Program-made: the position numbers and the translations under genes
The notes under the pieces: model-generated
Told to the model about the DNA's origin: nothing
Database searches by the model: none
Seen by the model: the letters and a program-made list of their open reading frames with translations, nothing else
DNA from: Ruminococcus sp.
GTDB lineage: Bacteria; Bacillota; Clostridia; Oscillospirales; Ruminococcaceae
DNA: 62,246 bases
Direction: 5' to 3'
Assembly: GCA_017620025.1 (NCBI GenBank)
Contig: JAFZRF010000010.1
Span: forward strand, 1 to 62,246
Shown here: positions 49,309 to 54,553 of the stretch, piece by piece
How the letters are laid out: each line of letters starts with the position of its first letter
Position numbering within the stretch: position 1 is the stretch's first letter

Positions 49309-50121
49309 TCATTCTTCTTCGGGATACAGTATCTCGTCTCTTATGCTTTCTCCGTCTGTTATGCGGTACACAAAGTATATGACAGCCGTGCAGGCCATGA
49401 TGCCTGTCAGGCTTTTGAATACGACGCTCCCGGCAAACGATGCGACCCACGGAAGGAAGTTGACAAAGAGGTGCAGTCCCATGGCGAGGGCGAGCCAGCG
49501 CAGTCTGCGGTCGGAAGCTATCAGCTTCTTGTATACCAGCAGGGACAGTGCGAGCTGTACACCGAATACGGCTACGATTCCGACTGCGCCGATAAGGCTG
49601 ACGATAATGCCGCTGCCGGCAAGCCTGCTGAACTCTTCAGTTATTGCCTGCGCCTGTTCGGGAGTCTTTCCGGCTGTGAAGTATGTGATGCCTTCAGTGT
49701 TGAGAGTATGCGCACGGCTTACAATGCGGAAGGAATCGGCTGCACGCATAAGGCATTCAAGTCCGCCGTGGCCTATAGCATAGCAGACAGCTGCGGGAGT
49801 GCTGCGTACTCCCGATACCGGATACTTCATGGCGAGCCAGCGGCCAGTCTCCTCGGTGTACGCCACAAGCTCGGAGGCTATGGCCTGCTTTGCTGCAAAG
49901 GAGGCCGAGCCCAGCATGAGCATTGCTGCGATGTCGGCTGTCCTCGTTGCAAGAAAGTATGTCACCGCTCCGGCGATCAACGGGAAAATGCTCACCCTGC
50001 TGTATCTCTTCATGAAGAGGAAAGCCGCAACCGGAAGAATCAGATACACAAGACCTGTTATGCAGTAACCGAGAACGGTGCTGCCGGAGAATACTATCTC
50101 CTGTATTTCATTTTCAGTCAC
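49309..50121 (-). CDS. YhfC-family intramembrane protease
   Basis: 270 residues with about seven hydrophobic helices. Conserved elements of the YhfC (DUF2324) glutamic-type intramembrane protease group are EETGRWLAMKY (EExxR) and AIGHGGLECLM (GHGGxE). The start is taken as the GTG at 50121, because AGGAGG lies seven bases upstream; the frame could extend back through the tRNA, which is not plausible. Its substrate is unknown. Confidence 0.82.
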   Translation of the reverse strand: MTENEIQEIVFSGSTVLGYCITGLVYLILPVAAFLFMKRYSRVSIFPLIAGAVTYFLATRTADIAAMLMLGSASFAAKQAIASELVAYTEETGRWLAMKYPVSGVRSTPAAVCYAIGHGGLECLMRAADSFRIVSRAHTLNTEGITYFTAGKTPEQAQAITEEFSRLAGSGIIVSLIGAVGIVAVFGVQLALSLLVYKKLIASDRRLRWLALAMGLHLFVNFLPWVASFAGSVVFKSLTGIMACTAVIYFVYRITDGESIRDEILYPEEE

Positions 50122-50205
50122 GGGCTCACCTCCTGACATTTCATACCTGATATGTATGTATAGTACCACATCATAGCGGTCTGTGTCAAGAGAACTGTCT
50201 GTATA

Positions 50206-50238
50206 CAAAAAAATTCCGGAGCATCTGCTCCGGAATTT
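50206..50238 (-). terminator. Terminator of the tRNA-Pro gene
   Basis: On the minus strand AATTCCGGAGC and GCTCCGGAATT form a stem followed by seven T, about 20 bp after the tRNA 3' end. Confidence 0.9.
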
Positions 50239-50257
50239 GGGGTAATGTTGATTACAC

Positions 50258-50333
50258 TGGTCTGAGTGACGGGACTTGAACCCACGGCCTCTACCACCCC
50301 AAGGTAGCGCGCTACCAACTGCGCCACACCCAG
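50258..50333 (-). tRNA. tRNA-Pro (anticodon GGG)
   Basis: 76 nt folding into a standard cloverleaf. The acceptor CTGGGTG pairs with CACTCAG, the anticodon stem CTACC/GGTAG holds the loop TTGGGGT (anticodon GGG), the T-arm is GTGGG-TTCAAGT-CCCGT, and CCA is encoded. The first base pair is C-G, as in bacterial tRNA-Pro. Confidence 0.95.
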
Positions 50334-50377
50334 TCCGTTGTACCGTTTTGCGGTTTTCTCCGTAACCAACGATATAC

Positions 50378-50406
50378 ATTATACCATGCCTGAAATGATT
50401 TGTCAA
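50378..50406 (-). promoter_or_regulatory. Promoter of the tRNA-Pro gene
   Basis: On the minus strand TTGACA (50401-50406), 17-bp spacer, TATAAT (50378-50383): a full consensus promoter. Confidence 0.88.
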
Positions 50407-50535: not shown

Positions 50536-50564
50536 TTGACTTTGTGCCGCAGGTGCGGTATAAT
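50536..50564 (+). promoter_or_regulatory. Promoter of the EAL-solenoid gene
   Basis: TTGACT (50536-50541), 17-bp spacer, TATAAT (50559-50564). Transcription would begin near 50571. Confidence 0.8.
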
Positions 50565-50664: not shown

Positions 50665-53394
50665 ATGAGTATCTTTAATCTTTCAGAAAATCCTCCGACC
50701 CTGAGCCATGACTGGCAGATCTTCCAGCAGTTCATAGGCAATATCGGCGCCTTCACCTATCTTGCCAAGGAAAAGGCCGCTTATCTCGATGAATCGGCTT
50801 GCAGGATGCTCGCCTGTTCGGGTTCAAAGCTCAATGAGTTCGAGTTCTTCAATCTGCTCGAAAAGATCTCAAAATGCCCGGTCGAGGGTCAGAAGCACAT
50901 CTACCGCTTCACCAATAACAATATTACAAAGTATATCAAAATGAATATCTACGAGAGCAGCGATGAGTGGCTCGGCTTCGTGCAGGACTTCACAAGGCAG
51001 TTCACGGAGCGCACCGAGCTCAATTCCTTTGTGGATTACGATCCGATAACGAGGCTCCCCTCCTATCCTTCCTTCTCTCAGACGGTAAGGAAGCTGCTCC
51101 CGGAGGTACAGTCATGCTGTCTTGCCACACTCTTCATCAACGGCGTTGAAAAGCTCGGCTCCTTCCTCACCGTTGACAGCACCAACAGCTGCATAACCTC
51201 CGTTGCGGAGGCTCTGAAGGGATTTACCGGCGAGAACGTAATTATGGGCACCAAGTCCAACTATGAGCTTTTCGTATTCTTCCGTGACTGCGACAAGATG
51301 CAGATATACAACCTCCTCAACGGTATGGATGAGGCTGTGCAGAACTGCGTCCTCACGGACGATTTCGGTGAGGTTATCGACATCTCCGACAAGAGCAGCC
51401 TCTCGCTCTCTATCGGCTGTTCCTCCTATCCGGATGAAGCCTCCGACTTCAATATGCTCGTGAACTATTCGGAGTTCGCTCTCTACGAGGCAAGGACAGA
51501 CCGCAGACACGTTATCAACTGGTTCTCGGAGGAGAACTACATACGTGAGAAGGATTCCTACAAGAACGCCCAGATGTTCTCCCGTCTCGTGCAGGAGAAT
51601 ATGCTGATGTATTACCTGCAGCCTATCGTCGAGACACAGACCGGCAACATCGTCGCCTATGAAGCACTCATGCGTACCACGGGCGATATCAAGATGCCGC
51701 CCCGTCAGATACTCGCCATTGCTGACAGTCAGAGCAATCTCTACGCCATCGAGAAGCTGACATTCTTCAACACCCTGAAGCTGCTCAGCGAGAACCAGCA
51801 GTTCTTCGCCGAGAGAAAACTGTTCATCAACTCAATGGCCACAAGTCTTCTCTCAGATGACGACTTCAACGAGCTCTACCTCACATACGGAGAGCTGCTC
51901 GAGAAGGTCGTTATCGAGATAGTCGAGGACAGCGCGGCAAATGCCGATGCCATAGAGACTCTCCGCAAGCGCTGCGGCTTCATACACGCCCAGCTTGCTA
52001 TCGATGACTACGGCACCGGATATTCCAACAGCTCAAACCTGCTGAAATATTCACCGGACTATGTTAAGATAGACCGTTCGCTCATCAGCGATATCCAGAA
52101 CGATATGAAGAAGCAGCAGCTCGTTACGCAGATCATAGAGTTCTGCCGTGACAATCAGCTGACCTCTCTTGCAGAGGGCGTGGAGACCGCGCAGGAGATG
52201 AAGACAGTCATCAGGCTCGGCGTTGACCTTGTTCAGGGCTACTACACCTCCAAGCCGAAGCCGGTATTCCTCGACAGCATATCCAAGGATATCAAGGACG
52301 AGATAATCAGGACGAACCTTGAGTCCCGCCACAGCGGCATGAAGAAGATATACGCCGCAAGGAACGATCAGGAGATCGATCTGCTCAAGCTGGCACTCGA
52401 GAAGTACACCGATATACATATCTATCAGAGCAGCCTCACCATTATCGGAGATCCCGAGAAGCAGGTGAAGATGAATATATCCGTCATGGATAATCACAGC
52501 TGCGATCTCACGCTCAGGAACGTGAATATAACAAGCGGCAACAGCAAGCCCACTATCACAGTCGGTGAGTATGCCCGCCTGTCACTCAACGTGAGCAAGA
52601 CGAACCGCATCAGCTATTCCGGTATAAGCGTACCGATGGGCAGCCAGTTCGAGCTCACCGGAAAGGGAACACTTGTTATCGACTGCAACGCTTCGGAGGG
52701 TATCGGCATCGGTACGGACTTTGATCACAGCTACGGCGATATTACGGTCGATATGCTCGGCTCACTTGAGATAATATGCAACAGCACCGAGACAGTCTGC
52801 ATCGGCGGCGGCATGAATGAGGACGATTCCTCGATCGAGCTGAAATCAGGCAAGATCAAGATAAATATGTACACCCACAACGGACTTGCCGTAGGAAGCT
52901 ACAACGGCGATGCCAGTGTGGACATAGCGGACGGATGCGATCTTGACATCACGTTCTCCGGCATCAACGTCGTAGGTATAGGAAGCTGCAGAGGCATTGC
53001 CGCTGTTACCTCCTCCGCAATGGTCACTCTCTCCGGTACAGGCGCACAGGCTGTCGGAATCGGAGCACTCAATGAGGGCGAGGGCAGTGTCCTCGTCACG
53101 GGCGGAAGGATAAGCATCAAGATGCGTGCGGCACGTCAGACCTGTATCGGCGCTATCGGCGGCAGCGTGAACGCCAAGATACGCAACGCCGAGATAATCA
53201 TCGACTCCGAGGGCGATGATGCAACGGGCATCGGTGATGCTCAGGGAAGCGGAAACGTATCAATCATCGATTCCAAGCTAAATCTGCGTATGTATGTCGG
53301 CAATCCGCTCGATATAGGAAGCGCATCCGGCGATACGGAGATCGCAGGTTCTGACATCTACTCGCTCGTAAACAACCAGCGTATCCAGCACTGA
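50665..53394 (+). CDS. EAL c-di-GMP phosphodiesterase with C-terminal beta-solenoid
   Basis: 909 residues, no membrane helix or signal peptide. Residues 1-115 are PAS-like. Residues 125-290 form a GGDEF fold starting DPITRLPSYPSF, whose active-site motif is degraded to SNYEL (198-202). The EAL domain (about 310-550) is intact: E333-A-L, N389, D447-D448 in DDYGTGYS, K468, E504 in LAEGVET and Q524 in QGYYTSKP, so hydrolysis of c-di-GMP is expected. From about 600 to the end there are eight repeats of 27-33 residues, each an isoleucine-rich strand, a G(I/V)G-type turn (GIGIG, CIGGG, VGIGS, VGIGA, TGIGD) and a second strand. This is a beta-solenoid. The start is placed at 50665 after TGGAGCG; earlier ATGs lack a site. 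Confidence 0.88.
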   Translation: MSIFNLSENPPTLSHDWQIFQQFIGNIGAFTYLAKEKAAYLDESACRMLACSGSKLNEFEFFNLLEKISKCPVEGQKHIYRFTNNNITKYIKMNIYESSDEWLGFVQDFTRQFTERTELNSFVDYDPITRLPSYPSFSQTVRKLLPEVQSCCLATLFINGVEKLGSFLTVDSTNSCITSVAEALKGFTGENVIMGTKSNYELFVFFRDCDKMQIYNLLNGMDEAVQNCVLTDDFGEVIDISDKSSLSLSIGCSSYPDEASDFNMLVNYSEFALYEARTDRRHVINWFSEENYIREKDSYKNAQMFSRLVQENMLMYYLQPIVETQTGNIVAYEALMRTTGDIKMPPRQILAIADSQSNLYAIEKLTFFNTLKLLSENQQFFAERKLFINSMATSLLSDDDFNELYLTYGELLEKVVIEIVEDSAANADAIETLRKRCGFIHAQLAIDDYGTGYSNSSNLLKYSPDYVKIDRSLISDIQNDMKKQQLVTQIIEFCRDNQLTSLAEGVETAQEMKTVIRLGVDLVQGYYTSKPKPVFLDSISKDIKDEIIRTNLESRHSGMKKIYAARNDQEIDLLKLALEKYTDIHIYQSSLTIIGDPEKQVKMNISVMDNHSCDLTLRNVNITSGNSKPTITVGEYARLSLNVSKTNRISYSGISVPMGSQFELTGKGTLVIDCNASEGIGIGTDFDHSYGDITVDMLGSLEIICNSTETVCIGGGMNEDDSSIELKSGKIKINMYTHNGLAVGSYNGDASVDIADGCDLDITFSGINVVGIGSCRGIAAVTSSAMVTLSGTGAQAVGIGALNEGEGSVLVTGGRISIKMRAARQTCIGAIGGSVNAKIRNAEIIIDSEGDDATGIGDAQGSGNVSIIDSKLNLRMYVGNPLDIGSASGDTEIAGSDIYSLVNNQRIQH

Positions 53395-53458
53395 CAGGAA
53401 GAGCCGGACGCAAAGCTCCGGCTCTCTCAATATAAGAAAAGAAAGGTTTTGTAAAAAT

Positions 53459-54553
53459 ATGAAGTTAGGCATGGTCGGCCTCCCGAATGTAGGCAAAAGC
53501 ACACTCTTCAACGCTCTCACCAACGCAGGTGCAGAGTCCGCAAACTACCCGTTCTGCACTATCGAGAAGAACGTCGGTATCGTATCAGTACCCGACGAGA
53601 GACTCGACAAGCTCGCAGAGATGTACGACCCGGACAAGTTCACACCGGCTACTCTCGAATTCGTGGACATCGCAGGTCTTGTAAAGGGCGCATCAAAGGG
53701 CGAAGGACTCGGCAACAAGTTCCTTGCTGATATCCGTGAGGTGGATGCTATAGTACACGTTGTGCGCTGCTTCGAGGATGCCAACATTGTTCACGTTGAC
53801 GGCAGCATCAATCCGCTCCGTGACATCGAGACTATCAATCTTGAGCTGATATTCTCGGATATAGAAATGGTTGACCGCCGCATCGACCGTGCAAAGAAGG
53901 CCGCAAAGAGCGACAAGAAGTATCTTGCAGAGGTTGATTTCCTCGAGAGACTCAAGGAGCATCTTGAGAACGGAAAGTCCGCAAGAGGCTTTGATTTCAC
54001 AGACGATGAGCGTGAAATGATCAAGTCAACTCCCCTGCTCTCCGCAAAGCCCGTCATCTATGCCGCCAATCTGAGCGACAGCGACTTCGCCAACAACATA
54101 GACACCAATGAGAACTACCTCAAGGTAAAGGCTCTTGCGGAGGAAGAGCACTCCGCTGTTCTCCCGATATGTGCACAGACTGAGGCTGAGATAGCCGAGA
54201 TGGACGAGGAGGACAAGAAGATGTTCCTCGCAGAGCTCGGACTCGAGGTATCAGGTCTTGACCGTATCATCAAGGAGGGCTATGCGCTGCTCGGCCTTAT
54301 CTCCTTCCTCACAGCAGGCAAGCAGGAGGTACGTGCATGGACTATCACAAGAGGCACAAAGGCTCCGCAGGCTGCCGGAAAGATCCATACCGACTTCGAA
54401 AAGGGCTTCATCCGTGCGGAGGTCATCTCCTATGACGACCTTATGGAGTGCGGTACAATGGCCGCTGCCAAGGATAAGGGACTTGTAAGACTCGAAGGCA
54501 AGGAGTACGTGATGCAGGACGGAGACATCGTTGTTTTCCGTTTCAATGTATAA
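53459..54553 (+). CDS. ychF: Redox-regulated ATPase YchF (OLA1 type)
   Basis: 364 residues of the Obg-like ATPase group. The P-loop MVGLPNVGKSTLFNALT is at the N-terminus, followed by NYPFCTIEKN, DIAGLVKGASKGEGLGNKF and the TGS-like C-terminus with IHTDFEKGFIRAEVISYDD. It prefers ATP and associates with ribosomes. A weak AAAGG lies before the ATG. It is followed by a terminator and a repeat element. Confidence 0.97.
   Translation: MKLGMVGLPNVGKSTLFNALTNAGAESANYPFCTIEKNVGIVSVPDERLDKLAEMYDPDKFTPATLEFVDIAGLVKGASKGEGLGNKFLADIREVDAIVHVVRCFEDANIVHVDGSINPLRDIETINLELIFSDIEMVDRRIDRAKKAAKSDKKYLAEVDFLERLKEHLENGKSARGFDFTDDEREMIKSTPLLSAKPVIYAANLSDSDFANNIDTNENYLKVKALAEEEHSAVLPICAQTEAEIAEMDEEDKKMFLAELGLEVSGLDRIIKEGYALLGLISFLTAGKQEVRAWTITRGTKAPQAAGKIHTDFEKGFIRAEVISYDDLMECGTMAAAKDKGLVRLEGKEYVMQDGDIVVFRFNV

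Follow-up and report, generated by a model that had tools for sequence, protein, structure and literature searches.

The stretch of DNA analysed here, 62,246 nucleotides of a Ruminococcus sp. contig (JAFZRF010000010.1; the window), carries a gene for a protein of 909 residues, in which an N-terminal domain, a degenerate GGDEF-like domain and an EAL domain are followed by a linker and a C-terminal solenoid, predicted to be a right-handed beta-helix (the EAL-beta-helix protein). The source genome belongs to the R. flavefaciens group, and full-length orthologues at 69-94% identity were found in nine named Ruminococcus records. The protein is probably a cyclic di-GMP (c-di-GMP) phosphodiesterase, judging by the catalytic positions that it keeps, and its solenoid is related to that of exported surface proteins. 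The features of the locus are given in Table 1; promoter-like sites such as the one listed there were found six times in the region, with 3.8 expected.

Table 1. Features of the EAL-beta-helix locus, in positions of the window.
Feature	Positions	Strand	Basis
EAL-beta-helix protein gene, 909 residues	50665..53394	+	Orthologues have MSIF at the same start
Promoter-like site TTGACT-17-TATAAT, 5' of the EAL-beta-helix gene	50536..50564	+	11/12 matches, weak evidence
N-terminal domain, residues 1-120, without known family	50665..51024	+	Profile A4: no PDB match, nothing convincing in Pfam
Degenerate GGDEF-like domain, residues 121-290, SNYEL for GGDEF	51025..51534	+	Profile A5 against solved GGDEF domains
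EAL domain, residues 304-534	51574..52266	+	Pfam PF00563, BlrP1 alignment
EAL-to-solenoid linker, residues 535-580	52267..52404	+	Alignments A1 and A3
EAL-proximal solenoid turns, residues 581-690, best conserved of the stretches compared	52405..52734	+	Majority frequency
Distal solenoid turns, residues 691-909, variable	52735..53391	+	Majority frequency; pLDDT of the model
ychF, conserved 3' neighbour, possible operon partner	53459..54553	+	Pfam YchF-GTPase_C; synteny

Pfam searches with the 909-residue protein (E up to 10) gave a sole match, EAL (PF00563), at residues 304-531 with an E of 5e-50, spanning positions 3-236 of the 236 in the profile. The domain keeps the metal and catalytic residues of EAL phosphodiesterases, E333, N389, E418, E421, D447, D448, K468, E504 and Q524, as placed by an alignment to BlrP1. 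Across the 56 distinct solenoid-bearing EAL pieces compared, a set that leaves out most of the genus loci L008-L046, every one of these positions is invariant save E421, kept in 55 (one E421D). A phosphodiesterase, as proposed in an earlier reading of the letters alone (the sequence-only reading), is thus the probable activity. The preceding domain is kin to GGDEF domains, as GGDEF domains of solved structure are matched by a profile built from 12 relatives, with a best E of 1.6e-8; Pfam gives no GGDEF match for the 909-residue protein taken alone. Its GG(D/E)EF signature is lost, reading SNYEL, which agrees with the degenerate site described before, and SNYEI, SGYEM, SYKDF and others in relatives. 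Hydropathy analysis revealed neither a signal peptide nor a membrane helix, in agreement with the cytoplasmic location predicted in the sequence-only reading, whose description of the architecture proved accurate. For want of a hydrophobic segment, the solenoid as an exported domain was ruled out; a frameshift chimaera or a fusion confined to one genome was ruled out by full-length matches across genomes of the genus.

The AlphaFold2 model of the solenoid is confident, with a predicted local distance difference test (pLDDT) of 91.5 and a predicted template modelling score (pTM) of 0.90, and pLDDT exceeds 85 in each 10-residue block of the distal turns (residues 691-909). The model is a solenoid and shows no other fold, in agreement with the beta-solenoid expected from the repeats, and its top matches in the PDB are right-handed beta-helices, including L. 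reuteri SRRP and Cthe_2159. Repeat composition as a source of artefact was ruled out (0 of 20,000 shuffles). Searches of solved structures by sequence gave only three weak arginase matches for the solenoid and none for an exported relative. No model in Pfam or NCBIfam covers the solenoid, and an annotated family of EAL-solenoid fusions, which the sequence-only reading had named as a refutation, was accordingly not found in these collections; no description of such a protein was found in the open-access papers searched. In a plasmid collection, none of the 15 matches listed extends over more than half of the 909-residue protein, all of them ending at the EAL domain, and no match covers 80%. In alignment A3 (21 sequences), the solenoid of paralogue L087:3116-5284 exceeds the 20 others by exactly one coil of 28 residues.

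The solenoid was found (E up to 1e-20) in 114 of 125 genus genomes, and in 66 of the 68 with a completeness of at least 90% and a contamination of at most 5%, so that the EAL-beta-helix enzyme nearly belongs to the core genes of the genus. Any match to the whole protein was found in 123 of 125 genomes, in several of which it comprises only the EAL domain or a paralogue. Among the matches listed, at least 117 of the 125 genomes have one at 53% identity or above; 105 of these begin at residue 1 or 2 and extend at least to residue 904, and the remaining 12 are shorter pieces, several at contig ends, one of which (G097, residues 1-548) may represent a real loss. Across Ruminococcaceae, 176 of 396 genomes match the whole protein at 1e-20, EAL-only matches included. 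Solenoid profile A3 matches 20 of 295 genomes sampled from the order, 18 of 391 from the class and 4 of 398 from the phylum, in overlapping samples that each count the own genome. EAL-solenoid proteins outside the family occur in families f198 and f28, giving three families in all. The own genome (75.86% complete) contains one solenoid, and seven matches to the whole protein, itself included.

In the proteins examined, the solenoid follows directly behind the EAL domain, and the N-terminus differs between classes. These comprise proteins of about 910 residues like the one described here; proteins of 860-900 residues; a class of 1005 residues with one membrane helix, a GGDEF protein with a single transmembrane segment (one examined, L079); a class of 1108-1307 residues with a LacI-type Peripla_BP_3 domain and without membrane helix, assigned by Pfam in L073, L077 and L078 and judged by sequence in L076 and L092; and a class of 703-722 residues that has an EAL domain and solenoid with almost nothing else. 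Further hydropathy flags concern residues 13-31 of L088, likely 5' of the true start, and L089, which is borderline. L073, L076, L077, L078 and L092 are apparently sugar-sensing c-di-GMP phosphodiesterases with a beta-helix. The combination of varied inputs with a constant tail suggests a shared output or positioning role of the solenoid.

For 37 solenoid loci (L093-L129), stretches of about 1.5 kb were fetched on each side where the contig allowed. All 23 strong loci (at least 185 bits) have an EAL domain next to the solenoid, and none of the 14 weak loci (at most 61 bits) has one within the stretch fetched. Seven of the 14 have an export-type hydrophobic N-terminus (L105, L107, L108, L109 and L114 by hydropathy, L127 and L128 by eye); the remainder comprises loci truncated at their end, loci without such an N-terminus, and L106 and L126, which were not inspected. 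Both weak-locus proteins tested in Pfam contain surface-protein modules (CarboxypepD_reg and SpaA; Flg_new) and match Beta_helix_3 (PF18889), in one case over cut-off. A profile of five exported relatives aligned to A3 in hhalign with a probability of 98.7% and an E of 2.8e-16, compared with 0.42% for the reversed profile and at most 1.56% for 30 column shuffles; the five were picked via A3 matches, which biases them toward matching, and the controls do not reproduce the match. We conclude that the cytoplasmic solenoid descends from an exported domain, or that both share an ancestor. We infer a direction from outside to inside, in which a surface-type beta-helix seems to have become cytoplasmic. 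The sequence-only reading was thus supported in part: its phosphodiesterase, its degenerate GGDEF and its solenoid held, and it had missed both the conserved family with its several classes and the homology to exported domains.

In a tree of 71 EAL domains, which excludes L004 for the stops that interrupt its frame, the solenoid label requires three changes, compared with a mean of 13.9 after shuffling, and the starred branches force at least two. The solenoid-less LacI-GGDEF-EAL proteins L083-L085 group with solenoid-bearing L078 at 100/100, and are likely cases of solenoid loss. All three (LacI-type sensor, GGDEF, EAL) stop right after the EAL domain; Pfam was run on L085 only.

Conservation along the protein was measured as mean majority frequency in a genus alignment of 36 distinct orthologues, the studied protein included (44 rows before the removal of eight duplicates). 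Values were 0.848 for the N-terminus, 0.883 for the GGDEF-like domain, 0.857 for the EAL domain, and 0.907 and 0.785 for residues 581-690 and 691-909 of the solenoid, a proximal-distal difference reached by 0 of 10,000 permutations within the solenoid. The constraint on the proximal turns is probably that of an interface and cap. We consider a cytoplasmic phosphodiesterase with the beta-helix as a docking arm the best explanation of the whole, with a probability of about 0.5. The N-terminal domain and the degenerate GGDEF would serve as input, and the EAL domain would hydrolyse c-di-GMP produced by the many GGDEF proteins of the cell. The right-handed beta-helix, taken over from an exported adhesin-type domain, would act as a rigid docking arm: the conserved turns next to the EAL domain would pack on that domain or on its dimer, and the variable turns farther out would bind a putative class-specific partner that places or switches the enzyme.

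The same gradient of conservation bears on two alternatives. A solenoid gained once, and kept as a tail that is stabilising but has no specific function, would agree with the faster evolution of the distal turns and with its possible loss in at least one lineage (L083-L085 beside L078); its retention in nearly all good genomes of the genus, its presence in three families and the proximal turns being better conserved than the enzyme itself speak against this neutral course, which we regard as the least probable of those considered. In a second alternative, beta-helices would stack end-to-end or side-by-side, as in bactofilins, and concentrate the phosphodiesterase in a filament or oligomer. Uniform-coil solenoids such as those of bactofilins are prone to stacking, the protein ends two residues past the last predicted strand, so that its last coil may be uncapped, and paralogue L087 tolerates its extra coil as a rod would; a polymer contact should be conserved, however, whereas conservation is lowest at the distal end, and self-assembly appears improbable.

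Across 21 diverse solenoids, the only positions with a pairwise identity above 0.5 outside Gly, Ala, Cys and the hydrophobic residues are Y563, Y581, P629, N647, P657, S774 and N903. Since the residues fixed in this set look structural, enzymatic activity of the solenoid is unlikely, a candidate function that was rejected with no site-like residue conserved family-wide; nor is a catalytic or ligand site common to the family visible in these 21 sequences. The scarcity of conserved positions other than glycines and hydrophobics also argues against one shared site for a polysaccharide, a ligand that the sequence-only reading had considered. It weighs in the same way on a ligand sensor, in which the beta-helix would retain the carbohydrate binding of its surface relatives, sense an intracellular glycan or oligosaccharide and gate the EAL domain: no charged or site-like residue is conserved, the likeness of the fold to carbohydrate-binding beta-helices is a weak guide to function, and the LacI-type classes already have a domain of sugar-sensor type at the opposite end. 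We consider such a sensor unlikely, if less so than self-assembly.

Several points also weigh against the docking arm. Part of the proximal conservation may be plain capping structure, and packing on the EAL domain is unproved, as the AlphaFold2 model covers the solenoid and not the full length. Close EAL relatives without solenoid exist (L083-L085), so that the solenoid is probably not needed for catalysis. Other points complicate the simple picture. The GGDEF domain need not be dead family-wide, since some sister proteins are less degenerate: by eye, L077 reads GGDVF and solenoid-less L080 SGDEF, and Pfam GGDEF matches L077, L078, L079 and L061. The EAL tree, in which some forks have weak support, would allow a single gain of the solenoid and two losses without establishing them. 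As a link to pili, finally, the single MshEN ATPase of the genome is not specific to the EAL-beta-helix protein.

This ATPase belongs to a genome with 19 GGDEF matches, 18 of them over cut-off, and no PilZ effectors. Encoded at L145:1324-3000, it is the one T2SSE (type II/IV secretion) ATPase there that carries MshEN, a PilB-like protein and a candidate c-di-GMP effector. The c-di-GMP-I riboswitch had no match in the genome, and none in any control genome either. In a recent review (PMC13234629), type IV pili are described as expressed by R. flavefaciens, and R. albus pili as binding cellulose; little on c-di-GMP in cellulolytic Ruminococcus was found in the open-access papers searched. For the docking-arm enzyme, a plausible readout would be type IV pilus extension via a PilB-type ATPase with c-di-GMP-binding MshEN, and a role in pilus control is plausible. 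A more far-reaching version, in which the glycan-reading beta-helix of a surface adhesin entered the cell once, in an ancestor of these gut Clostridia, and now serves as a cytoplasmic sensor of glycans or the pilus machinery that gates c-di-GMP breakdown, we regard as doubtful, more so than the simple ligand sensor and less so than self-assembly. Were it true, adhesion to plant fibre or carbohydrate status would be coupled to signalling, in parallel to the LacI-type sensors of the sister proteins.

Of 35 distinct genus loci, 34 have ychF as the next gene on the 3' side, in the same orientation and at a median gap of 70 bases (range 16-876); the remaining one, L026, ends at a contig edge. All six loci of a second genus (L051-L056; 41-44% protein identity) share this neighbour, and none of the 16 more distant loci (L057-L072) does within the short flank available. 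No promoter-like site was found between the two genes, with one weaker match inside the first; the arrangement suits a two-gene unit without proving it. The gap before ychF (53395-53458) contains, by eye, a GC-rich inverted repeat, GAGCCGGA...TCCGGCTC, without a T run, possibly an element of mRNA processing or attenuation. Genes on the 5' side recur only in the nearest relative (L015 and L017, same protein). A tRNA gene (50261-50333, minus strand) lies between a gene for a YhfC-type intramembrane protease and the EAL-beta-helix gene, and overlaps the 5' part of the mechanical open reading frame 49309-50406, so that the start of YhfC is probably further in.

With this protein, a well-understood catalytic domain is joined to the fold of surface adhesins, which makes the role of an intracellular beta-helix testable via EAL activity with and without the tail, and the solenoid adds a domain family outside Pfam and NCBIfam models. 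A solenoid inside the cell is not new in itself: bactofilins are cytoplasmic beta-solenoids as well, though short, polymerising cytoskeletal proteins without an EAL domain, and their Pfam model did not match here (E up to 10, with only EAL reported; weak matches may be filtered). Among the structural relatives, the binding region of L. reuteri SRRP (PDB 5ny0) is an adhesin with 8% identity. Cthe_2159 (PF14262, PDB 4peu) appears from the model to share the right-handed beta-helix fold; of the 50 matches listed it has the lowest root-mean-square deviation (2.6) and, at 16%, the highest identity, though its alignment is shorter (218 residues). It is a carbohydrate-binding beta-helix, whereas the 909-residue protein is without export signal, and the PF14262 model gives no match at cut-off, touching only one of the 21 family solenoids, at an E of 0.019, and not the 909-residue protein. 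Beta_helix_3 (PF18889) matches neither the protein (E up to 10) nor the 21 solenoids (E up to 1). The exported GIGGG-repeat surface proteins of Bacillota, covered in part by PF18889, have homologous coils with the same coil pattern; they are without EAL in the stretches fetched, whereas the 909-residue protein is without hydrophobic segment. With the EAL phosphodiesterases (PF00563; BlrP1, DosP, DibA) the protein has in common the EAL domain, its catalytic positions and a preceding GGDEF-like domain. The 15 NCBIfam models listed all stay short of their cut-offs, with no matched stretch extending past residue 534; from BlrP1, DosP and DibA the protein is set apart by its C-terminal beta-helix, which lies beyond every one of these models.
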